Source: Herbiconiux ginsengi (lineage in GTDB: Bacteria > Actinomycetota > Actinomycetes > Actinomycetales > Microbacteriaceae). Taken from it: 64,000 nt of DNA. Positions 448-25,180 of the stretch are shown here, one piece after another. Position 1 is the stretch's first letter; every line of letters begins with the position of its first letter. The position numbers and the translations under genes were made by a program. The stretch covers positions 884,979 through 948,978 of the forward strand of contig NZ_FNPZ01000002.1 of assembly GCF_900107435.1 (NCBI RefSeq), written 5' to 3'. The notes beneath the pieces were generated by a model. The model saw nothing but the letters and a program-made list of their open reading frames with translations, did no database searches and was not told the DNA's origin.

Positions 448-558
448 GGGTGGGGACGGAGTCTTGTCCGGTTGGAGCCATAGTCCCCCGCCCGCTGCGC
501 GGGCTCCCGCCAAACCCGATGCCAATGGCTCCAACCGGACAAGCCACCATCCCCACCC
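448..558 (-). repeat. 111-bp covarying hairpin element, copy 1
   Basis: Arms at 448-481 and 525-558 are inverted repeats of 34 bp; the inner 19 bp are a perfect match (463-481 with 525-543). Read on the minus strand, the 43-nt core contains TGGCATCGGGTTTGGCGGGA, then a small stem GCCCGC/GCGGGC with loop GCA. The same 111-bp architecture occurs at 25070-25180, with a nearly identical core but different arms. It could be a REP-like mobile palindrome or a structured RNA. The two cores lie in opposite orientation in the window. Confidence 0.85.
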
Positions 559-597
559 TCCCGTTTCGACCGTGGCCGCGAGGTCGTCGTGCCCGAT

Positions 598-650
598 CTC
601 AAACGGTGACCGACATCACGACCTCACCGGATGCAGCGATCACCGGTTGC
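598..650 (-). pseudogene. relic of the 3' end of the gene at 10177-10533
   Basis: These 53 bp match 10176-10228 with one mismatch. They encode, on the minus strand, the last residues of the 10177-10533 protein (IAASGEVVMSVTV and stop). The rest of that gene is absent here: beyond 650 the sequence is unrelated. The sequence downstream of the stop is also partly shared (439-461 with 10142-10164), but here the 111-bp hairpin lies between the two blocks. Confidence 0.75.
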
Positions 651-689
651 GATGGCAATCACACCAATTCCACTTCGCTCGGTTCAACT

Positions 690-723
690 CCCATGGCCGA
701 CCGATTCCCATAGCCGACCGATC
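690..723. repeat. 17-bp tandem direct repeat, two units
   Basis: Two adjacent 17-bp units (690-706 and 707-723) read CCCATGGCCGACCGATT and CCCATAGCCGACCGATC. They lie at the 3' end of the small minus-strand gene at 722-1051. No function is evident. Confidence 0.6.
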
Positions 724-1051
724 AATCCCAAGGCAGAAGCGAACCATCGTTGGTCAACCGATACCCACGCTTGCCAACCGGCGACATGTCGTTCGCCTTC
801 TCCATCATCACGAAATGGAGCCATCGACCCGCGTTGACGAGATCGGAACCACCCCCGCCCAACGCGCTCCGAGCAGCCTTGGCGAACCCAGCCAAGTTGT
901 TCTCAAACGCAGAAGTCGGTATCAGGAACTGCAATTGACTGCCGTCAATCCTCTCGTAGGAGACCACCTCCTCAGCCTCGTCGGCGCTCAAGATGCCCTC
1001 ACCCGGAGCAAGGATTTGCTGAAAGAGCTCCCTCCGAAGATCTATCTGCAC
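722..1051 (-). CDS. hypothetical small protein, 109 aa
   Basis: A GTG start at 1051 follows the stop of the next upstream gene by 3 nt, so the two look co-transcribed. The composition is that of a soluble globular protein, with mixed charged and hydrophobic residues, an alanine- and glycine-rich stretch near residue 60 and no membrane segment or signal peptide. I do not recognise a family. It lies beside a transposase relic, so the unit may be a remnant of a longer operon. Confidence 0.5.
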   Translation of the reverse strand: MQIDLRRELFQQILAPGEGILSADEAEEVVSYERIDGSQLQFLIPTSAFENNLAGFAKAARSALGGGGSDLVNAGRWLHFVMMEKANDMSPVGKRGYRLTNDGSLLPWD

Positions 1052-1054
1052 AAT

Positions 1055-1273
1055 TCAGTCTCCGATCGCACCAGAAGGCCATGCCGTAACGACATTCTCC
1101 GTCGACCGGCCCACCGCGACATAGGCCGTGAAGCTCCGCATGCTTCCTGACCTTGTGTCGTAGAGCTCAATGTAGGTCGAATATTGGTAGGAGTTATTGC
1201 GATCGAGGCTGACGACACCGTCCGGCCAGACGAGCGTTTGGGTGATGACGAAACTGCGAATGAACGTGTCCAT
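1055..1273 (-). CDS. hypothetical protein, 72 aa, probably 5' truncated
   Basis: The frame ends 3 nt before the GTG of the 109-aa gene and contains beta-rich sequence such as TQTLVWPDGVVSLDRNN and YSTYIELYDTRSG. An ATG lies at 1273, but it has no clear ribosome binding site. The frame abuts an IS3-type transposase relic immediately upstream, so the original N-terminus was probably removed by that insertion. No family is recognised. Confidence 0.4.
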   Translation of the reverse strand: MDTFIRSFVITQTLVWPDGVVSLDRNNSYQYSTYIELYDTRSGSMRSFTAYVAVGRSTENVVTAWPSGAIGD

Positions 1274-1280
1274 GGTCTTG

Positions 1281-1392
1281 TCATCCGTAGGCCCGTCCAG
1301 GAGCGGCGGTCGAGGACGTTCTTCTGCAGGAGCGCGAAGAACGATTCCATGGCGGCGTTGTCGCCGGTGGAGCCGACTCTGCCCATTGATCC
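1281..1392 (-). pseudogene. IS3-family transposase (OrfB/DDE) relic
   Basis: The minus strand encodes GSMGRVGSTGDNAAMESFFA, followed by LLQKNVLDRRSW. This is the classic C-terminal part of IS3-family OrfB around the last catalytic glutamate (the E of MESFF). The frame then drifts away from the family after about 35 residues, and no terminal inverted repeats or other part of the element are visible. It is a small internal fragment left by an old insertion that appears to have truncated the adjacent 72-aa gene. Confidence 0.8.
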
Positions 1393-1515
1393 GACCCCTT
1401 TCGCTACCCAGTTCTACTCTGGTGGCCTCTCAAGTACGGGTATTAGTACACTCATGGGTGGCTTGCAGTTCGCCCCTTATTAGGAGTGCAGCGTGATTAC
1501 GATCGGTGAAGCCAA

Positions 1516-2211
1516 ATGAACGATAAGCGAGGCTTTGCATTCGCGGTTGTGGGGGCGCTTCTCGCAGCATCGGGCTTTCTGATACTGCAGTTCGTGCGGA
1601 CCTCACAATCCACCGGTGATTCCGTGGCCGCGGGGATTCTCGTCGGTGTGATGGCGATCTCACTGGTCACGGTCATGCTTATCGGTGGCTACGTCGTCGC
1701 CGTCGCATACGGGTGGGACATTCGAGCCCGGAATCTTCGCGCGCAGGGCTCATGGGATGTTATCGCTTCAGCGCTGCGCTCCGAAGAGTTGATTAGTGAA
1801 CTTCGGAGGGGAAATCCAGCAGGAGCTCGCCGTGTCATTCCCCGGGGTTTGACTATTGTTGCCAACTCTCAGGGGATCGGAATTTGGTCAGGTCGAAGCA
1901 CCCTTGCGCTCGAATTGTGGCTTCCCTGGTCAAACATTGACGACATACGGCCCGCGATAGGTCGTGATGTCCTAGAACGGTATCGGGCTGTTGGGTTGCT
2001 AGTTCGGTGGGGGCCCACGATGTTGCAGCTGCCGATACCGGTTACTGGCGGTTTCCCTTTTGGCGTACGTCCTGCAAACCAGCGGGTGATCGACGAGTTG
2101 ATTGAGCAACTGCTTCGAGCACGGTCGCGGGGAATTGCGGCGACGACGAGGCAGGCGGCAGCGGCCTGTCATCGCCCGTACTTCGTGGACGATGGGGATG
2201 TGTGCGGATGA
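1516..2211 (+). CDS. hypothetical membrane protein, 231 aa
   Basis: There are two hydrophobic segments near the N-terminus (about residues 8-27 and 40-63). A cytoplasmic or extracytoplasmic domain of about 150 residues follows, containing IGIWSGRSTLALELWLPWSNIDDIRP, a pattern reminiscent of PH-like membrane proteins. The C-terminal 30 residues are basic, alanine-rich and probably disordered. It is a single gene with no evident operon partner. The function is unknown and the family assignment is only an impression. Confidence 0.6.
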   Translation: MNDKRGFAFAVVGALLAASGFLILQFVRTSQSTGDSVAAGILVGVMAISLVTVMLIGGYVVAVAYGWDIRARNLRAQGSWDVIASALRSEELISELRRGNPAGARRVIPRGLTIVANSQGIGIWSGRSTLALELWLPWSNIDDIRPAIGRDVLERYRAVGLLVRWGPTMLQLPIPVTGGFPFGVRPANQRVIDELIEQLLRARSRGIAATTRQAAAACHRPYFVDDGDVCG

Positions 2212-2469
2212 TCCGACACGGCGAATCGTCGAAAGACGTCCTGTGGATAACTTGCCCAGCTGATTGCCGCAGCCAAGGACGCTGTGAAGATCTTGTCGAC
2301 AATCTCCACCAGTGCAAGCGTGGCGGCTGCGACCTGGGTGGACATGAACAGGGGACTGCTGCACGGATAAGTGAAGATGTCACCTATTCGCGCAGCAGTC
2401 CCCTAACTTGGGCAGGCTCGGTAGTGGCCTGAGATCAGACCGATCAGCCATCAACCGAAGGAACAGTCA
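2212..2469. other. intergenic region with one DnaA-box-like site
   Basis: No convincing gene lies here. It contains TGTGGATAA at 2242-2250, a perfect match to the DnaA-box consensus in one orientation, but only a single copy. A long hairpin follows at 2350-2404. A single box is not evidence of an origin. Confidence 0.5.
2350..2404 (-). repeat. 25-bp-arm hairpin
   Basis: Arms 2350-2374 and 2380-2404 form an inverted repeat with a 5-nt loop. Three positions are mismatched on the plus strand, but on the minus-strand transcript all three become G-U pairs, giving an uninterrupted 25-bp RNA stem. No T-tract follows, so it is not a standard terminator. It could be a small mobile palindrome or a structured RNA. 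Confidence 0.7.
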
Positions 2470-2685
2470 ATGGATGCACCCAGCGTGATCATCGGCATCA
2501 TCGTCTACGTCGTCGGCTTCGCCGTCGCGATCCTCGTCCTGTCGGCCGTCATCCGGAATGCGGTCAGGCGCGGCGTCGAAGACGTGCTCTACACGAAGGG
2601 CAAGGACGGCCTGTGGTCGGCGAATCCATGGGTTATCTCTATCGCCAAGGAGGTCGCAGCGGAGACGCGCAAGACCGACGCCTGA
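2470..2685 (+). CDS. small single-span membrane protein, 71 aa
   Basis: The ATG at 2470 follows GAAGGA at a plausible ribosome-binding distance. Residues 5-29 form one hydrophobic segment (VIIGIIVYVVGFAVAILVL). A short basic juxtamembrane stretch (RNAVRRG) and a soluble tail of about 35 residues ending in lysine/threonine-rich sequence follow. The family is not recognised; the lone-gene setting gives no functional hint. Confidence 0.6.
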   Translation: MDAPSVIIGIIVYVVGFAVAILVLSAVIRNAVRRGVEDVLYTKGKDGLWSANPWVISIAKEVAAETRKTDA

Positions 2686-2763
2686 TCGCGGGGCTGCCCG
2701 AACGGCTGAGGCAGTGGGTTCCAACAGGCGCCCCGCCTGCAAAGCCCGAGTAGCGTCACGACG

Positions 2764-2973
2764 ATGAGAAGCAGAGCCAGGCGCAAAACGCTCATCGCCG
2801 TCGGTATTGCTACCCTGCTGGTCGAGGTCGTCTTCGCCGGACAGGGCGCGAACCTGATCCCCGGAAGCTCAATGACCGGAGACCGCACCTGGCTCGACGT
2901 CGGCCTCGCGCTCGCACTCGTCGGCGTTGTGCCGCTCGTGGGTGGAATTCGGCGTCGAGGGACCAGCAGCTGA
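2764..2973 (+). CDS. small two-span membrane protein, 69 aa
   Basis: A basic start (RSRARRK) precedes a hydrophobic segment at about residues 9-26, and a second lies at about 44-61. This predicts a small hairpin membrane protein with both ends inside. It lies 78 bp after the preceding small membrane protein gene in the same direction. The family is not recognised. Confidence 0.5.
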   Translation: MRSRARRKTLIAVGIATLLVEVVFAGQGANLIPGSSMTGDRTWLDVGLALALVGVVPLVGGIRRRGTSS

Positions 2974-3088
2974 AGCGCGCGCTTCTGCGTGAGGGCGGGA
3001 GGCCCAACACCCGACACCTCGCCGCTCGCCAAACATTTATAGCGGACGTGATACTCAGCGGTGCGGCGGGCCGCCCAACGGTCATCAG

Positions 3089-4687
3089 TTAGACGACGGG
3101 CACTCGGGTGATGGTCACGTCCAAATTCATGTTCTTGAGCTGTCGTCCGTGCTGCATCAGATTCAACTTGCTGAAGAACGGGAGCCAGTTAGTCCCATCG
3201 GCGGCGGAGTTGGCGAGCACCACGTAAGACACGGAGTACGCCGACCGATCAATTGGGTCGGCGCTGCCGGGTATCAGCGCGAGCCACCGAGACGTCAACG
3301 GTTCAGATGTGTTCTCAACGATGTGGGTGCGCACCTTATCGCGAAAGGTGCCATCGCCGATAAAGGTGGCAGCGGATACGCTCCCCTGCGCAAATAGGTG
3401 ACTCAGCGTCGATGACCGAGACTTCCGCTTGACATGTATGAACTCGCCCGAAGATGTCAGAATGTCGCACACTTCGATGCCGCTCGCGGCGCCGCCCGGC
3501 CGTACTATGCGAGCATCCAAGAGGAGGCGATCGTCAGGGGCCGAGTCCGCAGTCCGCTCATTGAATAGTCTCTCCGCTTCTCCAGACACGGCATCCGGAA
3601 AGACTGTCGGTGACGCGCCGAGGGAATTAGCGAACGTGTCCACTTCGTCTACCAAGGACTCACTCACCACGAACCATCGTCCCTCAATGAGTACGTAAAG
3701 CTGCAAGTCGATTCGTTGCTCAGTCACGAGGCATTGATAGACCGTCCACCGGGATTCGAACGTCGTGGAGCGACTGAAACGAACTGAGACATGACGCTGT
3801 TTCAAAGCCTCAATGGTCAGGTCGACCCGGGCGTCGCCCAGAGCATTCAGGTATGCGTCAATCTCCAGATCGTCATATTCGGTGCTCCGGGTACCCGCGA
3901 TCTTGAAGGCATCAACGTCTTCCCAGCTCAACGCCTCGGGCATGGCAAAATGCGTAGACGAAGTGTCCGACTCGATCAGCTGTTGGACCAGGAGACCGTC
4001 CAATTGCTCGATGATCGTGGCGTCTGTGACTAGTGCGAGATGGTCGATCCATTCAAAATTCGCCTTGTACGAATCTTCTTCATATGCGGCTAGGAACTCC
4101 CTGCAGATATCTGGTAGCTCCGAAGCAACAGCCACCAGATTCACGACCAGCGCATCCGAACCGGACAGCCGCTTGGCAATGCTCTTGTCTCTTGGCTCCC
4201 CTGTGACTGCTCGAAGTATGTCTCTCGACACGTCTACCCCGAACGTCGGCAGCTCCGAGCTCTTGCTGGCCTGGGTGGTTCTAGTCACAACCATGTCTTC
4301 GAACGTCTTGGTGTCGAGACTCCTGATCTGACTCGCGTCGATTCGATTTAGTGCGACGCGTAGTCCGAATTGATGCTCAATCTTCGCTGGGTCGAGAAAG
4401 CTGCGACCGTATCCGAAAGTGAAGGCTAGAAACTTGTTGTCGACCTGTAGCACGAGCAAACCCGAAGCTGACGATGAGGTCAGCGATTCTGGCTTGTCTT
4501 GTAGTGCGGGTGACACAAAGGAGACCCAACTCGGCGACACTTCCGGTTTCGATTCATAAAAGAACCGACCGACCAATCCGGAGTCGGCGTCTAGCTCGGC
4601 ACTATGGGGAGACTTGTCGGAAGCCAGTGCGTCGTCAACCGTATCGATGTCCCGTAATAGGTAGATCGTCAAGCGTCTCGATGCCAT
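3089..4687 (-). CDS. TIGR04141-type (DUF6119) protein, 532 aa
   Basis: Length and opening (RRLTIYLLRDI, a first strand and turn) fit the TIGR04141 'sporadically distributed' family, large proteins of unknown function often found in genomic islands. No membrane segments or known catalytic motif are evident. The start at 4687 lies 20 nt after the stop of the nuclease gene at 4708-5826 on the same strand, so the two form an operon in which this is the second gene. The pairing suggests a role in defence or in processing damaged or foreign nucleic acid. That is inference; family assignment is from sequence resemblance only. Confidence 0.65.
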   Translation of the reverse strand: MASRRLTIYLLRDIDTVDDALASDKSPHSAELDADSGLVGRFFYESKPEVSPSWVSFVSPALQDKPESLTSSSASGLLVLQVDNKFLAFTFGYGRSFLDPAKIEHQFGLRVALNRIDASQIRSLDTKTFEDMVVTRTTQASKSSELPTFGVDVSRDILRAVTGEPRDKSIAKRLSGSDALVVNLVAVASELPDICREFLAAYEEDSYKANFEWIDHLALVTDATIIEQLDGLLVQQLIESDTSSTHFAMPEALSWEDVDAFKIAGTRSTEYDDLEIDAYLNALGDARVDLTIEALKQRHVSVRFSRSTTFESRWTVYQCLVTEQRIDLQLYVLIEGRWFVVSESLVDEVDTFANSLGASPTVFPDAVSGEAERLFNERTADSAPDDRLLLDARIVRPGGAASGIEVCDILTSSGEFIHVKRKSRSSTLSHLFAQGSVSAATFIGDGTFRDKVRTHIVENTSEPLTSRWLALIPGSADPIDRSAYSVSYVVLANSAADGTNWLPFFSKLNLMQHGRQLKNMNLDVTITRVPVV

Positions 4688-4707
4688 TGCGAATCCCCGT
4701 TCCAGCG

Positions 4708-5826
4708 CTAAAGAACTGAGTTCGAAGCGTGTAGTCGAACGGAGGCTCGAATAGTCTCCGCGTGTTCGTATATCGCGTCCAGAGAATCAATCGGAATCTT
4801 CGTCTCAACCTTCTCGGCGTCGAAAACCCCGAGATACTTCTGCTTCTTCCCGTTGAACCACAACCGCGCAATCGGCTTCCGGTTGTTGTCGTCAAGCAGC
4901 ACCGCGAAATACGACTTCGCATCTCGATGCACGACCCGCTGCGGCTTCACCTCAGCACAGGCGATCGCCTTCACGATCTGGTAGCCCTCGAGCTCCTCCA
5001 GAGTTGTGTCGATCTCGTCCGAGTTCTGCTCGATGTCGAGGTCGGCCACGGGCTGACTTTGGACGGCGGATGGCCCGTGCGCATCGACAGCCGATGAAAC
5101 GGGGAGCGCGGTCGCCCCGAGCGCCGACTTGAGACGCTCGTTCACCCGCTCGTTGAGGAACTGCCGTGCTGCCTTGCCAACGAGCGTCGTGAACTGCGTT
5201 CGCACCTTCTGCGTGTACGCACCGTCGTAGACCCGCGAAGTGAAAAACTTGATCCACTCGTCGGATGGCTCGCGGAATTGGGCCGCAATCTCCCGCTTGA
5301 GCGCACCGACGTACTTGAGTTCTTCGGCCGCGCTGATCACCGAGTCGAGATCGAAGACATCCTTCGTGAGCTTCTTCAGCTCCGGGATGAGCGTCTCGTC
5401 AATGTCCGCAAGGTCGAGCACCAGGAAGGGCTTCTCGTCCATCCGGTTCGGTGCGTCGAGGTCGGTGTAGAAGTTGTAGACCTGGCCGTTGGTGAGCACG
5501 GCGATGCGAGCGTTGGTCACCGCGAAGTAGCGGAACAGCTGCGATGCATGCTCGATCTTCAGCTGTCCCATCGACGCCTTGCACTCGATCAGAATCTGGA
5601 CTTCGCCATCACGCACGATCGCGTAGTCGATCTTCTCGCCGCGCTTGATGCCAACGTCAGCCGTAAACTCGGGCACGACCTCAAGCGGATTGAAGACGTC
5701 GTACCCGAGGATCGTCGAAATGAACGGCATGATGAACGCGTTCTTCGTCGCTTCTTCGGTCTGTATTGCGTCGCGCTGATTCTGCACTTTTGCAGCCAGT
5801 GCGACGAGCCGTTCTTCAAACTCCAT
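4708..5826 (-). CDS. HsdR-N-like PD-(D/E)xK nuclease (COG4748 type), 372 aa
   Basis: The start is placed at ATG 5826, preceded by GGGGGA; the frame stays open further upstream but reads unlike protein. Residues 24-40 (TEEATKNAFIMPFISTI) and a PD-(D/E)xK core with D67, E81 and K83 (EKIDYAIV then ILIECK) match the N-terminal nuclease domain of type I restriction subunit R. No helicase domain, HsdM or HsdS is present. A conserved C-terminal domain (SYFAVLLDDNNRKPIARL, then YLGVFD) is typical of the stand-alone family. It is the first gene of a two-gene unit with the TIGR04141-type gene. Confidence 0.8.
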   Translation of the reverse strand: MEFEERLVALAAKVQNQRDAIQTEEATKNAFIMPFISTILGYDVFNPLEVVPEFTADVGIKRGEKIDYAIVRDGEVQILIECKASMGQLKIEHASQLFRYFAVTNARIAVLTNGQVYNFYTDLDAPNRMDEKPFLVLDLADIDETLIPELKKLTKDVFDLDSVISAAEELKYVGALKREIAAQFREPSDEWIKFFTSRVYDGAYTQKVRTQFTTLVGKAARQFLNERVNERLKSALGATALPVSSAVDAHGPSAVQSQPVADLDIEQNSDEIDTTLEELEGYQIVKAIACAEVKPQRVVHRDAKSYFAVLLDDNNRKPIARLWFNGKKQKYLGVFDAEKVETKIPIDSLDAIYEHAETIRASVRLHASNSVL

Positions 5827-6015
5827 TGTTTCCCCCGGATCGTTGGTTCCGAAGCTACCTGACAACTGTCGAGCAATGCGGAGCGGCCGCACCCCTACTT
5901 GTGGGGGCATGCCGGCCAAATCGAGATTCACGACAAAGAGATCCCGAACTTCCCGCTCGCGTAGATAAGGGGTGCCGCAACGACAATCGAGGAATAGACG
6001 TCGCCGGACAGACCG

Positions 6016-6897
6016 TTACCGACCTCGCCGGTTGTCGCCGTCCTGCTTGAGTACCGTGTCCACGGCGAGCGCCGCGGAGACCACGAGTGTTAGAAGCGGG
6101 TCTTCGAGCGACCGATGCATCTGAAGAACGTAGTTGTCGGCCTTGGTGAACATTTCTTTGCTGAAGCCCGCCCAAGTCTTCGTGATCCGAGCGATCTCGG
6201 AGCCGTGCGGGTCCTGGATGCTGAAGTCCCAGGCCTGCCAACTCTCCGCATTGATCGTCCCGAGCGTCTCGCCGTCGGCCTCCATGCGGAAGCGGACGTT
6301 GAACCTTCCTCCGAGCACTGACGCCAATACGCCGAAGTTCTCCTGCACGATCTGGCCCACATGGGTGCCGTCTTCACGCATGACGCTCACCGTCGACTTG
6401 AGAACAGTGGCCGGCCGGGTGAGCGTCAGGATTGGGCGGCCCGCCTCATCAACGATCTGGAACCGCTTGGTGGCGTTGTCCCGCCCCACGGCCATTCGAG
6501 ACATGCTGCTTCCGAACTGCCGAACGCCGCCGACCTTCCGTCCGTGCTGATTGAAGACCGAATACTCGGCTTTCCTCTCGAACAGCTTCGCCTTCTGGTT
6601 CACGACCAAGAGCGGCTCGGTGAACAGCGTTCCACCACCTGCGCGGGCCGCATCTGCGACGCCGAGTTTACGAACCTGCCGTTGCACGCCCTTGTCAACT
6701 GGCGTGCTTGTCCCAGCTTGCCCCGTGGGCTGGTTCGCGTGCGTGGCTGTCGGCAGTGGCATCGCTGGCGTAGGCGCGTCGACCGCCTGAGTGCCGGCCG
6801 AGCCCACGTGCTCGGTCCACTGATAGCCATCCCAGTACCGGTGCTCATGTCGCCCGAACGGGTCCGGGAACCACCCCGCTGACGAATGCTGACTCAT
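6016..6897 (-). CDS. DUF2510 / phospholipid-scramblase-related protein, 293 aa
   Basis: Residues 8-31 form a DUF2510 domain (GWFPDPFGRHEHRYWDGYQW), a small tryptophan-rich module common at the N-terminus of actinobacterial proteins. A proline- and threonine-rich linker follows. Residues of about 85-280 resemble the scramblase/LURP-one fold (LFTEPLLVVNQKAKLFERKA, and later alternating strands). The C-terminal hydrophobic stretch (LLTLVVSAALAVDTVL) matches the hydrophobic terminal helix of this fold. Its cellular role is unknown; a membrane-associated function is inferred. It stands alone, convergent with nothing and divergent from the surface protein gene at 7005. Confidence 0.75.
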   Translation of the reverse strand: MSQHSSAGWFPDPFGRHEHRYWDGYQWTEHVGSAGTQAVDAPTPAMPLPTATHANQPTGQAGTSTPVDKGVQRQVRKLGVADAARAGGGTLFTEPLLVVNQKAKLFERKAEYSVFNQHGRKVGGVRQFGSSMSRMAVGRDNATKRFQIVDEAGRPILTLTRPATVLKSTVSVMREDGTHVGQIVQENFGVLASVLGGRFNVRFRMEADGETLGTINAESWQAWDFSIQDPHGSEIARITKTWAGFSKEMFTKADNYVLQMHRSLEDPLLTLVVSAALAVDTVLKQDGDNRRGR

Positions 6898-7004
6898 AGA
6901 CGGAGGCTAACAGCGGCGGTCACCGAGTCCAGCAGGCTCCGACGGGTGATTCTGGTGGTCGATTCTTCTAATACGCTCGATCGAGCAGACTCCAGGGGGA
7001 ACAG

Positions 7005-8687
7005 ATGACACGTATCCGATCAGCGATCACCGCGACCATCATGGCGATCGGGCTTGTCGCCGGTTCCGTCGCCGTATCCACGTCATCCGCGGCTGCCTCC
7101 GACAGCGCGACGCATGCCATCTCGGGTCATGTTGCCAATCTGAGCCCCGCGGGCCAGAACAGCTTTGGCGTCAGCGCGCACATCCTTGTTTTTGACGAGA
7201 ACGGCAACTACGCACAGTGGGGCGATGCCGATTGGAAGGGCAACTACCGCCTCGAGGGGCTCAAAGACGGGGACTATCGAATCCAATTCACCGAGTATCA
7301 CTCGCCGTACTCAGCAGATGACGTCGGGCTTGCGCCGACGTGGTGGGGCGACACTCCATTCCGCTCCGAGGCGAAGGTGCTCACGATCGATGGAGCCGAC
7401 GAGGTGGCCGACGTGGGCATGGTCGCTGGAGCCTCGATCAAGGGCGTCGTGGACACCACCGCCTGGTACAGCGACAACGTCCAGCGAGCAACCACCTACA
7501 TCCAGAATCCCGACGGCTCGTGGGAACGCGGCGCTGAAGCCACCGTCACGAACGGCAGCTATTTCATGATCGGCGTGCCGGCTGCACCCCAGGTCATCCT
7601 GTTCAGCGACTACACGAACGGCATCGGCGGCGGGCGGATGTACAGCCCGCAATACTGGCCGAACCAGCCCACCCGATCGACGGCGAAGGTGATCCAGCCG
7701 GCCCCTGGCGACCAGTTGACCGGATACAACGCCACCCTGCTTCCCTGGGCCGCGCGGGCGGTGCAACGAATTTCCGGTGCCGACCGTTTCGAAGCGTCGG
7801 CGAACATCTCCGCCAGTCATTTCAGCGCGGGCGTGCCGGTGGTCTTCGTCGCAGATGGAACGAACTATCCGGATGCGCTGAGCGCCGGCCCCGTAGCCGC
7901 TCACCTGGGCGGTCCGGTTCTGCTGGTCACGCCGGGTGACGTCCCTGCACCCATCGCGTCCGAGTTGAACCGACTGAAGCCTCAGAAGATCTACGTGGTC
8001 GGAGGCCCGAACTCGGTCAACAACTCGACCTACTCACGGCTCGCGCAGTTCGCGCCTCAGATCGAACGGATCGGTGGTACCGACCGCTACGAGGTGTCTC
8101 GAAAGCTGGCTCTACTGGCCGCTCCTGCAATCACGCCCGACCCCACGTCGGGCGAGTCGCGCATTCAAGTGCTGTTCGCCGACGGGCGCGGCTTCGCCGA
8201 TGCACTCTCGGCCGGCTCGGCTGCCGCCTCAGGAGGTGGCGTGGTGGTCTTGGTGAATGGAGCGAACTCGAAACTGGATGCGCCGACCACGGCACTCATT
8301 CATCAGCTGCAACCGGAGTCCGCCTGGGTGATCGGCGGCCCGAACTCGATGTCGCCTGCTCTGGATGACAACATCCGGTCGTTAGGAGTGGGCTTCAACC
8401 GCATCGCCGGCGCCACTCGCTACGACGTGTCGGCAGAGCTGGGCGACTATTTCGTGGGCTGGGGTGAAGACTCCAATGCCTACTTGGCTCTCGGCTCGAA
8501 CTTCCCGGACGCCCTGTCGGGTGCGGCACTGGCCGGTGCAACCGACGCGATACTCTTCATCACACCGTCGGATTGCGTGCCCGGCAGGGTGCTGGACCGC
8601 ATGAAGACGAGCGGCACACCGAACGCCATCCTGCTGGGCGGTCCGAACAGCCTCGGCGCGGGCGTGGAACAAATGCGCCGGTGCTGA
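7005..8687 (+). CDS. secreted protein with three cell-wall-binding repeats (CW_binding_2)
   Basis: ATG 7005 follows AGGGGGAACAG. A Sec signal peptide occupies residues 1 to about 32 (basic MTRIR, hydrophobic core, AAAS-DS cleavage). Residues 38-250 look like carboxypeptidase-regulatory or SdrD-B-like beta-sandwich domains (GNYRLEGLKDGDYRIQFTEY). Three PF04122-type repeats start near residues 254, 355 and 466, each opening RI(S/G/A)G(A/T)xRYxxS and carrying NYPDALSAGP- or VVGGPNS-like blocks. The product is predicted to be bound non-covalently to the cell wall. A paralogue with the same C-terminal layout lies at 22886-24781. Confidence 0.85.
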   Translation: MTRIRSAITATIMAIGLVAGSVAVSTSSAAASDSATHAISGHVANLSPAGQNSFGVSAHILVFDENGNYAQWGDADWKGNYRLEGLKDGDYRIQFTEYHSPYSADDVGLAPTWWGDTPFRSEAKVLTIDGADEVADVGMVAGASIKGVVDTTAWYSDNVQRATTYIQNPDGSWERGAEATVTNGSYFMIGVPAAPQVILFSDYTNGIGGGRMYSPQYWPNQPTRSTAKVIQPAPGDQLTGYNATLLPWAARAVQRISGADRFEASANISASHFSAGVPVVFVADGTNYPDALSAGPVAAHLGGPVLLVTPGDVPAPIASELNRLKPQKIYVVGGPNSVNNSTYSRLAQFAPQIERIGGTDRYEVSRKLALLAAPAITPDPTSGESRIQVLFADGRGFADALSAGSAAASGGGVVVLVNGANSKLDAPTTALIHQLQPESAWVIGGPNSMSPALDDNIRSLGVGFNRIAGATRYDVSAELGDYFVGWGEDSNAYLALGSNFPDALSGAALAGATDAILFITPSDCVPGRVLDRMKTSGTPNAILLGGPNSLGAGVEQMRRC

Positions 8688-9479: not shown

Positions 9480-9500
9480 GCGCTCTACAGTAGTAGGACG

Positions 9501-9962: not shown

Positions 9963-10023
9963 GGGATTGACTCCAATAAACCGAGGTACACACCGAGGAT
10001 CCGGCATCTCCCCAGCTTAGTTT

Positions 10024-15096: not shown

Positions 15097-15173
15097 GCAG
15101 CACTCCTGGCCATCATTTCCTCGCCCTCCGCACTCTGTTGCGCAGCGGGGCGAGATTGGTACTTTGAGAATAG

Positions 15174-16036: not shown

Positions 16037-16045
16037 ATTGGAGTT

Positions 16046-16189: not shown

Positions 16190-16219
16190 ACTACGGATTG
16201 GTCGGGGCAGCGTCAGGCC

Positions 16220-17143: not shown

Positions 17144-17554
17144 CACGACTTCTTCATGATTGGACACGAGGCGAGCATACAGAGCGCCCGTGATGAGCGA
17201 TGCGTGGCGGCGCCGCGGACAGCAGGGGCGATGCCCGTCCAAGAACAGGCCCATATGCGCGCGGCCGAAGTATTCGGCTGGTCCACTCGAATCAGTGAGA
17301 GCAGCGGGAGTCACGCCGACCTGCGGAAGCGCCCCAGCTCGAGTTGGCGATGGAGTGCACTCCTCAATCTACGGGGAGGGCTGACGCATGAAGATTTGAC
17401 TGAACCCGACGACTCCAATCCTGAGTATTAGAGATTGGCTCGTGAACGTAGAAATCTCGAATCGCGCAACGATCGTGTCACCCGAATTGGGGATCCGTGA
17501 ACGAGCGACAATCGCCATGACTACCGATTGACTTCTTCCAACGTAGGGGGAACA
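17144..17554. other. gap between divergent genes, no supported gene
   Basis: This 411-bp stretch separates the NaeI-like gene from the divergent NA37-like gene. Open frames exist on both strands but have no start signals or protein-like composition. It presumably holds the two promoters. No repeat or hairpin stands out. Confidence 0.5.
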
Positions 17555-18604: not shown

Positions 18605-18605
18605 C

Positions 18606-19592
18606 GTGACTGGTTGGACCCCTGAGCGGTTATACGACCGATTCACAGAGCAGTTCGCGGTGTACAAAGATGCAGCCTCAGAAATCGAGCTTCGTGTCAA
18701 AGGCGCCCTGGACCCAAAGATCGTACATTCGATTTCTGCGCGGCCGAAGGATCCACTCGAGCTGTTTAGAAAGCAGCGCCGGAAAGGATACCTCGACCCT
18801 TGGTTGGACTGCCCGGACCTAGTAGGTGCTCGGGTCATAGTCCCGGAAGCGAGCCTAAAGTCGGTGGTCACCGATACTTTGAATGCACAAGAAGGATTAT
18901 CTGTGGTAGTTGAAGATCAGACTCTCGACGCCGACCCCGAAGTGCTTCACTATCGCGGCCTTCATTTACATATTACGTATAAGGACCTCACGAACGCCGA
19001 CGGAATCCCCATTCGGTGTGAAGTTCAGGTTCGAACGATTGCAGAACACGCATGGTCTGAGACGGTTCACAAGTACGTTTACAAGTCACCGATTGACCTA
19101 CCGGCAGACGCTCGGCGCGTGTTTAGTCGGCTGTTAGTGCTTGTCGAATTGTTTGATGAAGAGCTCACGAAGGGAGCGGGAATGGTCAGCTCATTGGAGA
19201 GCTATCAATGCCTCCAGCTTTCGAGACATCTTGAACGGAAGCTTCAAGATTTTGCGGCTGTCCCCTCTGACATAGGGCTCAGCGTGGAGAACATCGTCGC
19301 ACTGGCGACGGCGGGGAGCGGAACGATCGAGTCGTTCCAACAGGACACCGATTCGTACATAGAGGAGCACCGCTCAGAGCTTCACGGCATCATGAGCGCC
19401 TACGGCCCGTCTGCGAGTGGCTTTGACATTGCGTCAAGGTGGATCTTGACACAAGGCGAAGCTCTCTTGCTACTGGCTCTCCTCGATAAGGACGAATACG
19501 CTCTAAGTGCTCAGCTTCGAGACTCTGATCTATACCACGTCGTGGAGCAGCTCGCCCTTATCAGCGGACACAGTGGATTTGTCATTGAGTAG
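18606..19592 (+). CDS. RelA/SpoT-like nucleotidyltransferase-domain protein, 328 aa
   Basis: The synthetase-type RelA/SpoT fold spans about residues 35-165: SARPKDPLELFRKQ (basic ATP region), D71 in DLVGARVIV, Y116 in HYRGLHLHI, E139-V-Q-V-R-T, H148, and H155 with YVYK. No HD hydrolase, TGS or ACT domain is present. It is longer than house-keeping small alarmone synthetases, with a helical C-terminal half of about 160 residues of unknown role. It could make (p)ppGpp or another pyrophosphorylated product, as toxSAS/CapRel toxins do. It is coupled (1-nt gap) to the NA37-like gene. Confidence 0.8.
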   Translation: MTGWTPERLYDRFTEQFAVYKDAASEIELRVKGALDPKIVHSISARPKDPLELFRKQRRKGYLDPWLDCPDLVGARVIVPEASLKSVVTDTLNAQEGLSVVVEDQTLDADPEVLHYRGLHLHITYKDLTNADGIPIRCEVQVRTIAEHAWSETVHKYVYKSPIDLPADARRVFSRLLVLVELFDEELTKGAGMVSSLESYQCLQLSRHLERKLQDFAAVPSDIGLSVENIVALATAGSGTIESFQQDTDSYIEEHRSELHGIMSAYGPSASGFDIASRWILTQGEALLLLALLDKDEYALSAQLRDSDLYHVVEQLALISGHSGFVIE

Positions 19593-19937
19593 AGATCCGA
19601 CACCTGCGTCGCAGGCCTTCAACTCTCGAGCGCAGCTCACTCCAGTGTCGCTGACAACGAGAGGGACGACGCCGCGGAGTCTTGCATGAGTTAGAACCTG
19701 ACCAAGAAGACTGTGCGGGTGCTCTTGGCTGTGATCCAGTCGAGCTGGGGCTTCGACGTGTCTTCGTGGTCGAACAGGTTCGTCAAGGTCCCGAAGGGCT
19801 TCCCTTTCAGGGCTCCGCCGACAAGTTCGCGCGCTGGTTCTGGCGATGAGTCTCGTTGAGAACCAGTTGATTCGCGTCGATCGGCGGCTCCGTCGCGCTT
19901 GCTCGCGGACTGACGGACTCCCGCTAAGTTCGTTCTC
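19593..19937 (-). other. intergenic region with a possible gene relic
   Basis: There is no complete gene in 345 bp. On the minus strand 19691 to about 19830 reads as a protein C-terminus (ALKGKPFGTLTNLFDHEDTS, then KSTRTVFLVRF and stop). It lacks a start and merges upstream into low-quality sequence. It is probably the decayed end of a larger gene; no family is recognised. Confidence 0.4.
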
Positions 19938-20759
19938 ATGACTGACAAGGTTGCGCTCGCCTACTTGCTCCGGTCTGTAAACGCGCGCTATGTAGAAGTG
20001 TTTTACGGCGACGAGCGAATAAGCGAAGCTACTGGATTTGTGGTCGAGCACGAAGAGAGACTTTTCCTCATCAGCAACCGGCATGTGCTGGCCGGGATGA
20101 AGCCAGGGAGTATGGAATTAGTCGACAAAGCTGGCAGACAAGCAACTAGCGTGCGAATCACCTCATATGTCGCAACCGAATCGAGTTCGGCGACGGTGTG
20201 CCAAGACTTCCCTTTGATAGCTCCATCCACGGCTGGAGGATATCCGTCGGCCCTCTGGTTCGAGCATCCCACTTACGGAAACACCGTTGATGTTGCCGCT
20301 CTTGAGCTGACCGATCTACAGGCCCCCGACTACGCTCTGCAAGACGAGACCGTGGCGAACGACGAGTCTTCGATGTACCCGATCAGACAACTCGATACGA
20401 TGACCGTAATCGGTTATCCAGGTGGCGTGCACGGTGGAGTTCGCGGCAAGGCCGTATGGATGAAAGGCACCGTTGCCAGCGACTACGCCGATGAAGTCGA
20501 CGGACTGCCCAGATTCCTCATCGATAGTCGGACGCGTGCGGGAATGTCCGGTTCGCCGGTCTACTTCAGCGCCGCAGGTCGCAGCGCAGTTGTGAGCGAA
20601 GGGATTCTCTCAATCGCAGACCCTGACGCCTTTCAATTCGTCGGTGTTTACTCAGGCAGAATATTTGACGAGTCGGACGTCGGGTACGTCTGGCGAGCAA
20701 AGACAATGTGGGAGATCGTTGTCGGCGAAGTGTTAGGGCAGGCGTATCAGCCGATCTGA
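19938..20759 (+). CDS. trypsin-like serine peptidase, cytoplasmic, 273 aa
   Basis: The chymotrypsin-fold triad can be placed at H49 (FLISNRHVLAG), D118 (NTVDVAALEL) and S204 (RAGMSGSPVYF, the GxSGS motif). IGYPGGVHGG lies between D118 and S204. No signal peptide or membrane segment is visible, so it acts inside the cell, unlike secreted trypsins. Cytoplasmic trypsin-like proteases occur as effectors in bacterial defence systems, which suits its place between the RelA/SpoT-like gene and higBA. No dedicated sensor gene is adjacent. Confidence 0.8.
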   Translation: MTDKVALAYLLRSVNARYVEVFYGDERISEATGFVVEHEERLFLISNRHVLAGMKPGSMELVDKAGRQATSVRITSYVATESSSATVCQDFPLIAPSTAGGYPSALWFEHPTYGNTVDVAALELTDLQAPDYALQDETVANDESSMYPIRQLDTMTVIGYPGGVHGGVRGKAVWMKGTVASDYADEVDGLPRFLIDSRTRAGMSGSPVYFSAAGRSAVVSEGILSIADPDAFQFVGVYSGRIFDESDVGYVWRAKTMWEIVVGEVLGQAYQPI

Positions 20760-21038
20760 GCGTTGCCGCTCTCAATATCCCCGCTCCGCGTCAGTGACAA
20801 CGGAGGATCTAGAGTGCCGGAGTGAAGGGCACTCCACGTTCTCTCGCACGGGACGTTCGTTCCAGCGTCGAACTGGAAGCGCCTGGCCGATTAGTGACCA
20901 TCCGAGGTGTAGTTGGTTGGTGAGGTGAAATGGCCTCGCGAACGCTGGGAAGCCTTGCGCGATGTGACTCATGTGAATCGAGGATTGAGCATCAGCTCTT
21001 CACCTAGCCACTAGTAACGCGACCCGTTATCATTGAGC
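20760..21038. other. intergenic region, nothing recognised
   Basis: No gene, relic or strong hairpin is supported in these 279 bp between the protease and higB genes. It presumably holds the higBA promoter. Confidence 0.5.
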
Positions 21039-21320
21039 ATGATCCACTCGTTCGCCGACCTCAACACGGAGCGGGTCTGGAATCGGCAGCATGTCCGCCG
21101 ATTCGGCAGTGACCTGCAGCGCATGGCGAACCGCAAGCTCCTCATCCTGGACGCGGTTGAGGATCTCAATGAGCTTCGCATTCCGCCCGGCAACCGTCTC
21201 GAACAGTTGAAGGGCGATCGCGAAGGTCAGCACAGCATCCGAATCAACGACCAATGGCGCATCTGCTTCGTCTGGACTCCCACGGGTCCGGCTGATGTGG
21301 AGATCGTCGACTACCACTGA
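21039..21320 (+). CDS. higB: HigB-type mRNA interferase toxin, 93 aa
   Basis: The RelE/HigB fold is evident: SFADLNTERVW at the start, LRIPPGNRLEQLKGDREG in the middle, QHSIRINDQWRICFVW and VEIVDYH at the end, with R and H residues typical of the catalytic surface. ATG 21039 is preferred over an in-frame TTG two codons upstream. Toxin-first order with higA 11 nt downstream is characteristic of higBA. It would cleave mRNA on translating ribosomes. Confidence 0.92.
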   Translation: MIHSFADLNTERVWNRQHVRRFGSDLQRMANRKLLILDAVEDLNELRIPPGNRLEQLKGDREGQHSIRINDQWRICFVWTPTGPADVEIVDYH

Positions 21321-21331
21321 GAGGAGACATC

Positions 21332-21628
21332 ATGGCAACCGCACACGCACCGATCCACCCGGGTGAGATCCTTCTCGAGGAGTTCCTGAAGCCGCTGGAG
21401 ATCAGCCAGTACCGGCTCGCACAGGCGATCAACGTGCCGCCTCGGCGCATCAACGAGATCGTTCACGGCAAGCGCGGTATCTCCCCCGACACAGCAGCTC
21501 GGCTTGCCCGGGCGTTCGGGACCTCGGATCGATTCTGGACGAATCTGCAAACCCGTTACGACCTCGAACTCGTAGCGGAAGCCAAGACCGAGGAACTCGA
21601 CCGGATCGTGCCGCTGCTCAGCGCGTGA
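21332..21628 (+). CDS. higA: HigA-type antitoxin, 98 aa
   Basis: This is an HTH_3/Xre-type antitoxin: IHPGEILLEEFLKPLEISQY, then RLAQAINVPPRRINEIVHGK (the helix-turn-helix) and GTSDRFWTNLQTRYDLELV. ATG 21332 follows GAGAGGAGAC. It neutralises HigB and represses the operon. A degraded relative lies at 24785-25048. Confidence 0.93.
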   Translation: MATAHAPIHPGEILLEEFLKPLEISQYRLAQAINVPPRRINEIVHGKRGISPDTAARLARAFGTSDRFWTNLQTRYDLELVAEAKTEELDRIVPLLSA

Positions 21629-21761
21629 CCAATCAGAGGCTGAATCTCCGATTCACCCACTCGGAGGGCTGACTGCGCTTCACCGCAATGTTCGGGTTCC
21701 CAACCGCTACTCCGCGCCGGGACAGGTGCGGCGGATGCATGCGGAGGAATACACTCGCCGC

Positions 21762-22628
21762 ATGTCCGATGCCAATGGAGGCAACAGGCCACCGTTTCCG
21801 GAGAACGTGCCGGCAGCGGGCACGGGCATGCCGCAGTCTTCTCATGACGGTGCGCAACAGCCGCCCGCGACGGCCGGCCAGCCGGCACCGGCTTCGGCCG
21901 CGACTCCGGTGGCGGCGCGGCATCCCAAGAGGGTCTATGCGATCGGCGGCGCGATTCTGGTGGCTGTGGTCGGGGCGACAGCGTCGGCCGTCATCACGCC
22001 CGAACGGCTCGACGGGCTCTTCGCCATGTTCGGTGGTGGTGCCGGTGCGGGGGTCGCGGCATCCGCTTCATCGACGCCGCCGGGGCTCGAGACCAAGAAC
22101 GTCTCGAGTGGCGACAAGGCGCTGTCGTTCGCGATTCCTGCCGAATGGGGTGCGCGCACCGGGAATTACAACGTGAGTCCGGATGCCGGAACCGCCGTCG
22201 TCACCGGAACCCAAGTCGACTCACCGGTCGAGTTCGGCGAAGACGGAGCCTACGTCGCGGTGTCGAAGGACTTTGCGACCAGAACAGGGCTGGCCGGCCT
22301 CGAATCCACCGACCTCCGCGCCCGCGCCGACGACCTCGTCGGAAAGGCGGACTGGACGATCGACGGATGCATCGCCTCCGACGAGCCGTCCCGCGAGAAG
22401 GATGGCTGGCAGCTGGCGACGCGGTATTGGACGGATTGCGCGCAGATCCCCGACAGCAAGCTGTGGGAGATGGTGGCCATCGATGACGAGGGGACGATGG
22501 TCGTGACGCTGCAGGTGTTGCTGTCGCCGGATGCATCCCCCGAGGTCATGGACACGATCGTCGGCTCCTTCACTGTCGACCCGCGGAAGGTGGCGTCTGG
22601 GCTGGGGGGCGACGTCGTGCTTCCTTGA
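21762..22628 (+). CDS. membrane-anchored extracytoplasmic protein, 288 aa
   Basis: ATG 21762 opens a proline- and alanine-rich cytoplasmic stretch of about 55 residues. One membrane segment (RVYAIGGAILVAVVGATASAVI) and an extracytoplasmic domain follow, with SGDKALSFAIPAEWGARTGN and two cysteines (DGCIAS, TDCAQ) that could form a disulfide. This layout resembles actinobacterial type II membrane proteins with a PsbP/LpqN-like outer domain, though the fold call is uncertain. The Shine-Dalgarno-like GGAGGA is rather far (13 nt) from the start. Confidence 0.6.
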   Translation: MSDANGGNRPPFPENVPAAGTGMPQSSHDGAQQPPATAGQPAPASAATPVAARHPKRVYAIGGAILVAVVGATASAVITPERLDGLFAMFGGGAGAGVAASASSTPPGLETKNVSSGDKALSFAIPAEWGARTGNYNVSPDAGTAVVTGTQVDSPVEFGEDGAYVAVSKDFATRTGLAGLESTDLRARADDLVGKADWTIDGCIASDEPSREKDGWQLATRYWTDCAQIPDSKLWEMVAIDDEGTMVVTLQVLLSPDASPEVMDTIVGSFTVDPRKVASGLGGDVVLP

Positions 22629-22689
22629 GGTGGGCATTTGCCGCGCCTGGAGGGATGGCGGCACAGTCGACGTCGGAGCGGGCCGAAAT

Positions 22690-22790
22690 CAGGCGGCGTG
22701 GGCAGGGTGGCACGACTTCGCAGCGACGAACTGCACGACGTCATGGCCGCAATCGAGATAGTTGGGCCTGCACGTGCACGTATGTCCCGC
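22690..22790 (+). pseudogene. relic of a DUF222/HNH gene 5' region
   Basis: LRSDELHDVMAAIEIVG encoded here matches LSDDELLDVMAAIEAVG near the N-terminus of the DUF222/HNH protein at 25234, and the DNA is also similar. The match stops soon after and no full gene follows. A related element may once have been inserted here. Confidence 0.6.
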
Positions 22791-22885
22791 GGATGCCTCG
22801 GCGCGCCTCAGTTTCGCGCGCAAGCACCACACGTGCAGAATAGGCAAGGGTCGACACCGTAGGCGGCCAAAGGGGGTGGACGCCG

Positions 22886-24781
22886 ATGAAGGCACGATCG
22901 ATGGTGGCCGCAGCAGGGATTACCGCCCTGCTGCTATCTACCGCACCTGTTGCGGCAGATGCATCCGTGTCGGTTCAAAGCGATGCGGCGGCTAGCCCCG
23001 CAACAGCGTCGGCGAATGAGGTCATCGCAACCGTCCAGAGCGAGCCGTATTACTACAACTCGTACGAGACTTTCTTTGCCACCCCAAACAACCTCCCGGC
23101 TCCGGTCACCCCGGTCACAACAGTGCTGCATGTCGAACTGACCGACGCGTTCCTCGCGGGAGCATCCGACAGCCTGACCTGGAAAGTCGAGGGCTTAGAC
23201 GGCCTGACAGGGACTTCAATCATCGATCGAGAGGCGAAGGCCGTCGACATTGCACTTCCGGCCAACTTCTACGACCTGGCATCGACGTCGATCTGGCCTG
23301 GAACTCTGTATCTGACCTTCTCCTCGCGTGCGAGGAGCGCCGACCGCCTTCCATCCGTTCCCGCGCGATTCACCCAGGACCAGGCCTTCGGCTGGACCAG
23401 CACCACCAGCTATGTGCTCAAACTCAAACCCGCCAGCGCGGACTCTGAATCGACAGTGCAGATTCCGATGTCCAAGATCCATTCTCCTGGGCCCCAACTC
23501 ACCAGACATTACTGGGCCACGACGGACGAGGGGGCGGTCATCGACGAGACGACGACGCTCCGCTTCGTCTCTTCCGACCCGATCTGGGCGGCGGCGGGCG
23601 CGGCCACCGCACCCAGCGCCTACATCCAGCGGCCATCACTCGACTGGAGCGACGGGTATCGCGTTCCGACGAGCGAGCGTCCATCGGTTTCACCCGACAA
23701 CTCGTCGATCGCGGTGCCGTTCTCATCCGTGACCGGGGTGGACGGGCCCGCGATCGGCGGCGCCTCCCTGATTCAGTTCACTGCCGGCATGGCCAATCAG
23801 TACCTGGAAGGAACGCTGGCAACCGCGGTCATTCCGATCGGCACGAACACCTCCATCGGCGACACGCGCTCGACGCGGCTCGCCGGCCCCACTCGCTACG
23901 ACGGGAGCATCACGGATGCTGCAGTCGCCTTCCCCGACGGCGCGCGGCGCGTGTACCTCGCTTCCGGCGAGGTGTTTGCCGATGCCTTGAGCGCCGGACC
24001 GGCCGCCGTGCACAATGGTGCGCCGCTCGTGCTCGTAACCTCGTCGCAATATTCCTCGGCGAAGTATCTCTCGTGGCTACAACCCGAAGAAATAGTCGTT
24101 CTCGGTGGACAGGCTTCCACACCGGATGACGTCGTGGCCGACATCCTTCGCGAATCCAAGCTCGACCCCGACTCATACACGCTGCGGCGTGATGCGGGCG
24201 CCGACAGGTATGACGCCTCACTTGCCATCTCAGCGGCCGAGTTTCCGGAGGGCGCGGCTACCGCATTTCTCGCCTCGGGGTCCGGATTCGCGGATGCGCT
24301 CACCGCGATCCCTGCCGCCTCGCGCGAAGGCGCGCCGGTCATCCTCATCCGTGGCGATCAGCCGCGACTCGATGACGCCACCATTTCCGAACTCGATCGC
24401 CTCGGGGTGTCGAATGTCGTGATCGCTGGGGGCCCCGCGAGCGTCTCAAACGGGATCGAGAAGCAGCTAGGGCAGCTCTATCCCGGCGAGGTGACTCGAT
24501 TCGGCGGGGCCACCCGCTTCGACGTCGCAGAATCGCTCAACGCCGCCTATTTCCCCACGGCGACGACAGCCTACGTGGCGACAGGAGCCAACTTTCCGGA
24601 TGCGCTTACCGGCGGCGTTCTTGCTGGCGTCAAGGATGCACCCCTCGTTCTCGCTCGCACCGAGTGCATTCCGGCGTCGACGTGGCAGCGTCTGGCCGAC
24701 TGGGCGCCGTCGAAAGTCACCCTGATTGGGGGCACGAACAGTCTCGCGCCAGTGATGCAGAGTCTCCCGCGGTGTGACTGA
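22886..24781 (+). CDS. secreted protein with three cell-wall-binding repeats, 631 aa
   Basis: ATG 22886 follows GGGGGTGG. A signal peptide spans residues 1-27 (KARSMVAAAGITALLLSTAP, cleavage near ADA-S). Residues 30-325 are a beta-rich region of unknown fold with many Ser/Thr/Tyr residues. CW_binding_2 repeats begin near 331 (RLAGPTRYDGS), 433 (GADRYDAS) and 537 (RFGGATRFDVA), each with FADALSAGP-like and VVLGG/VVIAGG/VTLIGG blocks. The C-terminal repeat ends in a short cysteine-containing tail like the paralogue at 7005. The protein is predicted to be held at the cell wall, with the N-terminal region as the display domain. Confidence 0.85.
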   Translation: MKARSMVAAAGITALLLSTAPVAADASVSVQSDAAASPATASANEVIATVQSEPYYYNSYETFFATPNNLPAPVTPVTTVLHVELTDAFLAGASDSLTWKVEGLDGLTGTSIIDREAKAVDIALPANFYDLASTSIWPGTLYLTFSSRARSADRLPSVPARFTQDQAFGWTSTTSYVLKLKPASADSESTVQIPMSKIHSPGPQLTRHYWATTDEGAVIDETTTLRFVSSDPIWAAAGAATAPSAYIQRPSLDWSDGYRVPTSERPSVSPDNSSIAVPFSSVTGVDGPAIGGASLIQFTAGMANQYLEGTLATAVIPIGTNTSIGDTRSTRLAGPTRYDGSITDAAVAFPDGARRVYLASGEVFADALSAGPAAVHNGAPLVLVTSSQYSSAKYLSWLQPEEIVVLGGQASTPDDVVADILRESKLDPDSYTLRRDAGADRYDASLAISAAEFPEGAATAFLASGSGFADALTAIPAASREGAPVILIRGDQPRLDDATISELDRLGVSNVVIAGGPASVSNGIEKQLGQLYPGEVTRFGGATRFDVAESLNAAYFPTATTAYVATGANFPDALTGGVLAGVKDAPLVLARTECIPASTWQRLADWAPSKVTLIGGTNSLAPVMQSLPRCD

Positions 24782-24784
24782 GGT

Positions 24785-25048
24785 GTGAGTCTCGGCGCTG
24801 ATCCTGAGTCGAGTGTCGACGTAGAGCAATGGGCGGCAACTGCTGAGAAGCCGCTGGACATCAGCCCGTATCGCTTCGCGCAGGCGATCGACGTGCCCGC
24901 TCGACGCATCGACGAGACCGTTCAGGGCAAGCGCGGGATTCGCCCGACGGCAGCGCAACTTGCTCGCGCATTCGGCACCTCGGATTGCTTCTGGACGAAC
25001 TATCGGACCCGGTATGACCTCGAGCTCGTCATCCAGCATTCCTGGTGA
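24785..25048 (+). pseudogene. higA relic (orphan antitoxin remnant)
   Basis: KPLDISPYRFAQAIDVPARR and AQLARAFGTSDCFWTNYRTR closely follow HigA at 21332-21628, but the first 20 or so residues are replaced by unrelated sequence, one helix residue is missing, and the C-terminus diverges (IQHSW). No toxin gene accompanies it. The frame is still open from GTG 24785, so a truncated protein might be made. Confidence 0.7.
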
Positions 25049-25069
25049 TCGTAGGTGCGGGCCGAGACT

Positions 25070-25180
25070 GGGCGACGTGGGGTGGGTGATCCGGTCGAGT
25101 CATTGGCATCGGGTTTGGCGGGAGGCCGCGCAGCGGCCGGGGGACTATGACTCGACCGGATCACCCACCCCGCGGCGCCC
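25070..25180 (+). repeat. 111-bp covarying hairpin element, copy 2
   Basis: 34-bp arms 25070-25103 and 25147-25180 pair with two mismatches. The 43-nt core on the plus strand matches the core of copy 1 (448-558, minus strand) at 41 of 43 positions. The only two differences are a swap of one base pair in the inner stem (GGCCGC/GCGGCC here, GCCCGC/GCGGGC there). Arm sequences are mostly different between copies, yet each pairs with its own partner. It begins 22 bp after the higA relic and ends 54 bp before the DUF222/HNH gene. Confidence 0.88.

Follow-up and report, generated by a model that had tools for sequence, protein, structure and literature searches.

The stretch of Herbiconiux ginsengi DNA that we analysed (64,000 nt of contig NZ_FNPZ01000002.1, hereafter the window) contains two hairpins, copy a and copy b, that share an almost constant core and differ widely in their arms, and the locus raises the question of what kind of element keeps its stem paired while the sequence of that stem changes. 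Each copy is 111 bp long, with 34-bp arms flanking a 43-nt core. The cores are identical at 41 of 43 positions, and the two differences form a C/G to G/C swap by which a pair of the inner stem is restored. The arms are identical at 19/34 and 18/34 positions, yet 31/34 and 32/34 of their positions form Watson-Crick pairs within the respective copy. The positions and lengths of both copies, the core differences and the pairing of the divergent arms had been pointed out in an initial annotation of the window, and all of these features were confirmed. We conclude, with a probability of roughly 0.6, that the two copies belong to a new hairpin family, interspersed and non-autonomous, in the actinobacterial order of the host, with the folded strand as the acting form and with a behaviour that resembles REP or ERIC elements but a different build. 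The kind of element is a known one; what is new is the combination of a fixed loop with freely changing arms and a preference for one strand.

Within the window, a scan for hairpins with loops of up to 90 nt gave its two top scores to copies a and b; longer inverted repeats, which were poorer (74% complementary), were also found in a repeat search. RNA folding of the copies together with their flanks (146 nt) resulted in z-scores of -7.3 for copy b and -6.0 for copy a, and none of 200 shuffled sequences was equally stable in either case. A covariance model (R1) matched copy a at 446-561 with 129 bits and copy b at 25068-25182 with 121 bits, both scores being on the model's own training copies, as R1 was built from six copies that included a and b. 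The length of 111 bp is specific to these two copies; model matches elsewhere are mostly 94-126 nt long.

The initial annotation had proposed a dispersed hairpin family, and covariance-model searches of related genomes bore this out. In the genus Herbiconiux, 6 of 16 genomes had matches, with 38 copies in total (13 each in G003 and G008, six in G015, and two each in G000, G002 and G014). These copies were aligned after fetching their flanks, and in the resulting alignment, which was fitted to the model and thus favours structure, 95.5% of the stem cells were paired compared with at most 45.5% in slid controls. Changes on both sides occurred in 31 of the 39 stem pairs, none of 500 shuffles reached any of the five measures, and only two of 28 outer pairs never varied. 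The covariation of the arms can also be seen in the plain sequences, apart from the model-fitted alignment.

The fixed part of the element is an internal loop that reads TGGC(A)TCGGGNCTGGCGGG on its 5′ side and GGGA or GGGGGCAT on its 3′ side, with deviations in some copies. It is G-rich on one strand and is combined with an inner and an outer stem. The outer stem measures about 20-35 bp and stays paired although its sequence is highly variable. The inner loop is a GNA triloop in 37 of the 38 Herbiconiux copies. GNA triloops are stable in single-stranded DNA, but the inner loops of some other genera differ, so this point is weak. A short unpaired 3′ tail, CACCCCGAG, was exact in 13 of the 38 copies and had one mismatch in five more (copy b is among these, copy a is not), compared with 0.04 (exact) and 0.45 (one mismatch) per 38 in shifted controls. 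Four GG tracts are present in the core of 72 of 81 copies; a G-quadruplex core was rejected, as a quadruplex appeared in the minimum-energy RNA fold of 7/112 copies and of 32/385 shuffled-core controls.

The expectation of more than two copies genome-wide failed for the home genome (4.85 Mb, 12 contigs), where the model found copies a and b only, plus reverse-strand shadows and one match at E 4, but it held for the relatives. A core-pattern scan of named genomes returned 15 stretches, all of them in Herbiconiux or Microbacterium. With the 38-copy model, 29 of 398 Microbacteriaceae genomes, representing 10 of 85 genera, were matched at E ≤ 0.001; nine candidates were scored per genome, and the copy numbers from this search are lower bounds. 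A deeper search of ten genomes gave 3 to 16 matches each. At the level of the order, 11 of 396 genomes were matched at E ≤ 1e-4, namely the home genome, two more Microbacteriaceae and eight genomes outside the family (in families f6, f9, f14 and f18), six of which carry the core as judged by eye; among the f6 matches, locus L176 lacks the core by eye and L172 is doubtful. In the pattern scans, the three reversed-pattern controls gave no matches.

That the family is dispersed is seen at L085:5070, L085:11051 and L093:5074, where near-identical copies share 123-124 bp at 97-99% identity and have unlike adjacent flanks. Some subfamilies bring identical arms to new sites. Most copies lie between genes, 42 of 44 by a home-made gene model and 42 of 43 loci in the set from other genera. 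In one genus (G333, G388 and G152), hairpins form two-member units of the order A(-), spacer, B(+), and similar left members recur at several sites; one of these units has lost part of its left member. At one orthologous spacer (L152 in G388 and L155 in G333) the two-hairpin unit stands in opposite orientations.

The core strand is favoured over its complement. Among the non-Watson-Crick pairs of the outer stem, we counted 33 G.T, 5 A.C and 23 others in Herbiconiux, and 30 G.T, 5 A.C and 30 others at 43 loci of other genera. Because a G.T pair on one strand is an A.C pair on the other, a strand-blind process predicts equal counts. The G.T to A.C contrast has a P of 2e-5 in the other genera and of 0.057 in Herbiconiux when distinct columns are counted (11:3), values from which shared ancestry was not removed. 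An earlier and looser count on 44 copies gave 52 G.T, 13 A.C and 63 others.

From these observations we infer that the core strand of the element, either as RNA or as single-stranded DNA, would act as a single folded molecule, and that its G-rich loop may be bound by a factor that moves or uses it. Two processes together would keep the arms paired, namely selection for the fold and the copying of one arm from the other by template switching. A more specific version is tentative and falls well short of an even chance: a mobile single-stranded hairpin recognised by its structure, in which the G-rich loop would serve as the address, the arms would need only to pair and be renewed by template switching, and the enzyme would belong to a class so far unconnected with small repeats.

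The genomic placement bears on an alternative that we consider doubtful but the best of the rivals, namely that the hairpin is a 3′-end structure, a barrier to transcription or RNA decay that is kept in place for its neighbours, while its mobility would be ancient or a side effect. In the set from other genera, a gene 3′ end lies within 400 bp on the tail side at 33 of the 42 intergenic loci (within 50 bp at 26 of the 33); the background value is 153 of 360 gap sides (P 2e-6), although this background was drawn from Herbiconiux loci and some of the other-genera loci are orthologous to each other. All six Microbacterium loci from the core-pattern scan have a gene 3′ end on the tail side, all six hairpin pairs less than 500 bp apart in the deeper search are oriented (-,+), with different arms where the sequences of both members were available, and the pairs in G095, G391 and G215 lie between convergent genes. 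The keeping of pairing at orthologous sites would also suit such a role. However, Herbiconiux copies are unbiased (17/34), and the close pairs in G152 and G333 have the 5′ end of one neighbour (the pair in G063 was unclassified). The core strand is antisense to the adjacent gene, and thus the wobble asymmetry points away from the mRNA of that gene, and no T run was seen in the 3′ ends when these were inspected by eye without counting.

The 3′-end explanation is further weakened at a site between dnaE and a flavin-reductase-like gene (identities read by eye) that we compared in nine genomes. It is filled by the hairpin in G391 and G302, with different arms, whereas G415, G262 and G095 have a spacer of just 4-19 bp without a long palindrome. 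G366 and G163 have other sequence there, G337 has an unrelated long palindrome and G215 has another neighbour gene. The arms at this site are therefore not a kept terminator in that genus.

A purely mutational origin of the arm pairing, in which a palindrome corrects itself by template switching and no selection acts on the fold, is rather unlikely as a full explanation, but part of the evidence speaks for it. At orthologous sites (16 comparisons, 469 stem pairs picked by their pairing), we found 26 single changes compared with 86.6 expected at the flank rate and 21 compensated doubles compared with 2.0 expected. The nine comparisons with a flank identity of at least 90% (282 pairs) gave 13 singles against 39.8 and 6 doubles against 0.6. 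Overall, singles are about 3-fold under and compensated doubles about 10-fold over the flank expectation, which is low if anything because the flanks include coding sequence. The counts omit comparisons that were redundant within the L125/L126/L131/L142/L149 and window/L073/L096 sets, three comparisons of L122 without shared pairs and those of L118 with L117 and L120 (12 doubles each). The last two were excluded because the site holds two-hairpin units and a partly deleted partner, and for the same reason we rejected a reading of L118 as an arm swap.

These counts, which support the proposed family, mean that the stem is kept paired where it stands, whether through selection, through template-switch copying or through a combination of the two. 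Doubles are nearly as frequent as singles (21:26), and template switching is a published mutational route to one-step compensated stem changes in RNA hairpins (PMC8794818, in the accessible part of the text). Six of ten pattern hits in the genome G472, those without a pattern mismatch, point in the same direction: their cores are on average 94% identical and their outer arms 49-51%, where base composition alone predicts 40%, and still 15-18 of 18 outer pairs are intact. This contrast between core and arms is hard to obtain by independent point changes, so it is simpler to assume template switching or a replacement of arms. The argument of the initial annotation that covariation by itself implies selection is consequently not supported in that form. 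Against a process that is mutational only, G.T exceeds A.C on the core strand, which is unexpected if the process is strand-blind, and conservation across genera extends to the loop, although it has no partner.

It is highly improbable that the arms are host sequence, derived from terminator palindromes that already existed and received a mobile core in their loops, and we largely rejected this explanation. It would account for a constant core with arms that differ by copy and for the many copies that follow stop codons, and in 400 kb of G472, 21 of 27 palindromes with a score of at least 20 are core-less and have a short loop. In contrast, 400 kb of G415, a sample in which 14 of 20 tiles were chosen as holding known copies, contained no core-less palindrome of that score with a loop of at most 12 nt, and 15 of its 17 palindromes of that score belong to the hairpin family by eye (8 by the pattern of the script). 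The site next to dnaE, filled in 2/9 genomes and lacking a long palindrome in the three with a 4-19 bp spacer, and the subfamilies that carry the same arms to new sites also contradict it.

Other palindromes were observed in the same two genomes. In G415, a separate repeat at L242:17414, L245:10799, L250:2045 and L254:9073 and 9223 has constant inverted ends, TGTCGAAAATGCAGGAG, and a variable interior of 53-57 nt; dnaA was not seen among the long open reading frames at the start of the G415 contig. In G472, long short-loop palindromes at L221:14303, L227:13631, L229:3648 and L233:1399 have a constant outer part, GTGGGTAC, and a variable inner part.

One of two possibilities raised in the initial annotation, a REP-like element mobilised by a transposase, was right in kind. 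RAYTs, the REP transposases, carry the Y1 domain PF01797. In a search confined to Herbiconiux, however, this domain had no match in any of the six carriers, and the single match among the 16 genomes was in a non-carrier. The tags GTAG (6 of 112 copies compared with 5.7 in shifted controls) and CGTC (16 compared with 28.2) were not in excess, the ends of 16 copies being approximate. A classical REP or REPIN moved by a RAYT or another Y1 transposase is therefore very improbable in spite of the intergenic location, the convergent-gene preference, the inverted dimers and the G.T stem pairs known for REPs (PMC3733652, in part), and we rejected such an origin in Herbiconiux. An origin by reverse transcriptase was likewise rejected there, as PF00078 was absent from all six Herbiconiux carriers; in the whole sample it was matched in 3 of 16 carriers and in 2 of 8 non-carriers.

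Searches for a known relative were also negative. At E ≤ 0.01, copy b matched neither phages nor plasmids, and L127 had no plasmid match in its own search; with the limit relaxed to E ≤ 10, copy b matched 178 phage records, mostly of Mycobacterium phages, none of which covered 80% of the query, and the ten listed each covered 37% at an E of 7e-3 and lay within genes. Four core patterns had no match in viral contigs. Rfam gave no match in the window above the gathering score. For five loci at E ≤ 1 there were 11 matches below it, ten of them to miRNA families and one to a C/D-box RNA, the best (a miRNA family) with an E of 6e-5 and 45 bits compared with a gathering score of 100. Among the titles and abstract beginnings of the matches listed, the open-licence literature holds no description of the hairpin family.

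Several observations weigh against a family of interspersed hairpins that act as a folded strand. The home genome has only two copies. No mobilising enzyme was found by the Y1 and reverse transcriptase searches in the Herbiconiux carriers, and no autonomous copy was found: the sole (-,+) pair seen at a distance of a few kb (3.7 kb, G391 C1) encloses genes read from their translations as hisD, nrdR and pyrD, for which no family search was made, and was rejected as an autonomous element. A clean empty site with a target duplication is also missing, the one candidate, in G003, looking like what a deletion left behind, with arm letters that differ. The loci L085:5070 and L093:5074 are not fully independent, as one 1.1-kb homologous segment is found near both (376 bp away in one case and adjacent in the other). 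The picking of stem pairs by their pairing biases the orthologous-site counts towards paired states, and the model searches were run without decoy genomes and gave single weak matches without the usual core, L134 in the Microbacteriaceae and L176 outside them.

The features of the window that concern both copies are collected in Table 1. Linkage of the hairpin to DUF222 genes in general was rejected: the home genome has 12 DUF222 matches, and of the 12 loci that were fetched, one contained a member of the family. Near another DUF222 gene (L019:744-835, G000 C4) there is a long hairpin of a different type, whose loop has 24 nt. In the home genome (window 448-25180), G002 (C2 1382523-1400491) and G014 (C1 3035768-3049015), the only two copies form a (-,+) pair, 24.6, 17.8 and 13.1 kb apart, respectively, around a rearranged region, and the pairs are candidates for a role at its borders. 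The window also contains overlapping long inverted repeats clustered at 55586-55946, which have a common motif (GGCCCGCAG / TCGTCGAAAAAGG) and are unlike the hairpin family, and two more strong palindromes with a short loop at 44743-44806 and 2350-2404.

Table 1. Hairpin copies, their cores and the neighbouring genes, in window coordinates.
Feature	Coordinates	Strand	Remarks
Hairpin copy a	448..558	-	Arms 448-481 and 525-558; core 482-524; core strand is minus
Hairpin copy b	25070..25180	+	Arms 25070-25103 and 25147-25180; core 25104-25146; core strand is plus
Core of copy a, 43 nt	482..524	-	G-rich internal loop and inner stem with GCA triloop
Core of copy b, 43 nt	25104..25146	+	Compensating change in inner stem
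Open reading frame	37..429	+	No Pfam match at E ≤ 0.001; stop 17 bp from tail side of copy a, which runs antisense to this frame
DUF222 gene	25234..26637	+	Start about 52 bp after copy b; neighbour only

With about 110 hairpins (a table of 114 rows, a few of them doubtful), the family provides a natural series in which pairing persists independently of sequence. With this series it can be tested what moves orphan palindromic repeats without a RAYT, and which share of stem covariation is due to template switching and which to selection. It also calls for caution, as stem covariation, on which claims of a functional RNA usually rest, does not by itself suffice for inferring selection.

Compared with known systems, the hairpin family resembles REP and REPIN elements in being short intergenic palindromes that form inverted dimers, prefer convergent genes, contain G.T stem pairs and are patchy among relatives (PMC3733652, in the accessible part). 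It differs in size, with matches mostly of 94-126 nt compared with the 20-40 bp described for REP palindromes, and in its outer stem of about 20-35 bp compared with 5-13 bp in the GTAG and CGTC superfamilies (same part of PMC3733652); the long fixed internal loop, the free arm sequence, the lack of a tag excess and the lack of a Y1 match in the Herbiconiux carriers set it apart as well. Systematic stem-loop repeats of bacterial genomes are also known as SLS families, for which the accessible text names Corynebacterium and Mycobacterium among high-GC genomes and does not contain the words Leifsonia or Streptomyces (PMC2267715). The template-switch hairpins share the change of both stem sides in one step, but they were described for RNA genes and not for a dispersed hairpin family (PMC8794818, in part). 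The ERIC, Correia, RUP and YPAL miniature inverted-repeat transposable elements (MITEs) are similar in that they measure about 100-200 bp, form a long stem-loop and have an unproven mover (PMC2229807, in part), ERIC having been compared by description only. Terminal inverted repeats are listed for most of the bacterial MITEs tabulated there and target duplications for several, whereas in the hairpin family no target duplication was established and the terminal arms are the variable part, widely so, even if some subfamilies share them. As in MITEs, a small repeat of 123-124 bp is found at sites with unlike adjacent flanks.

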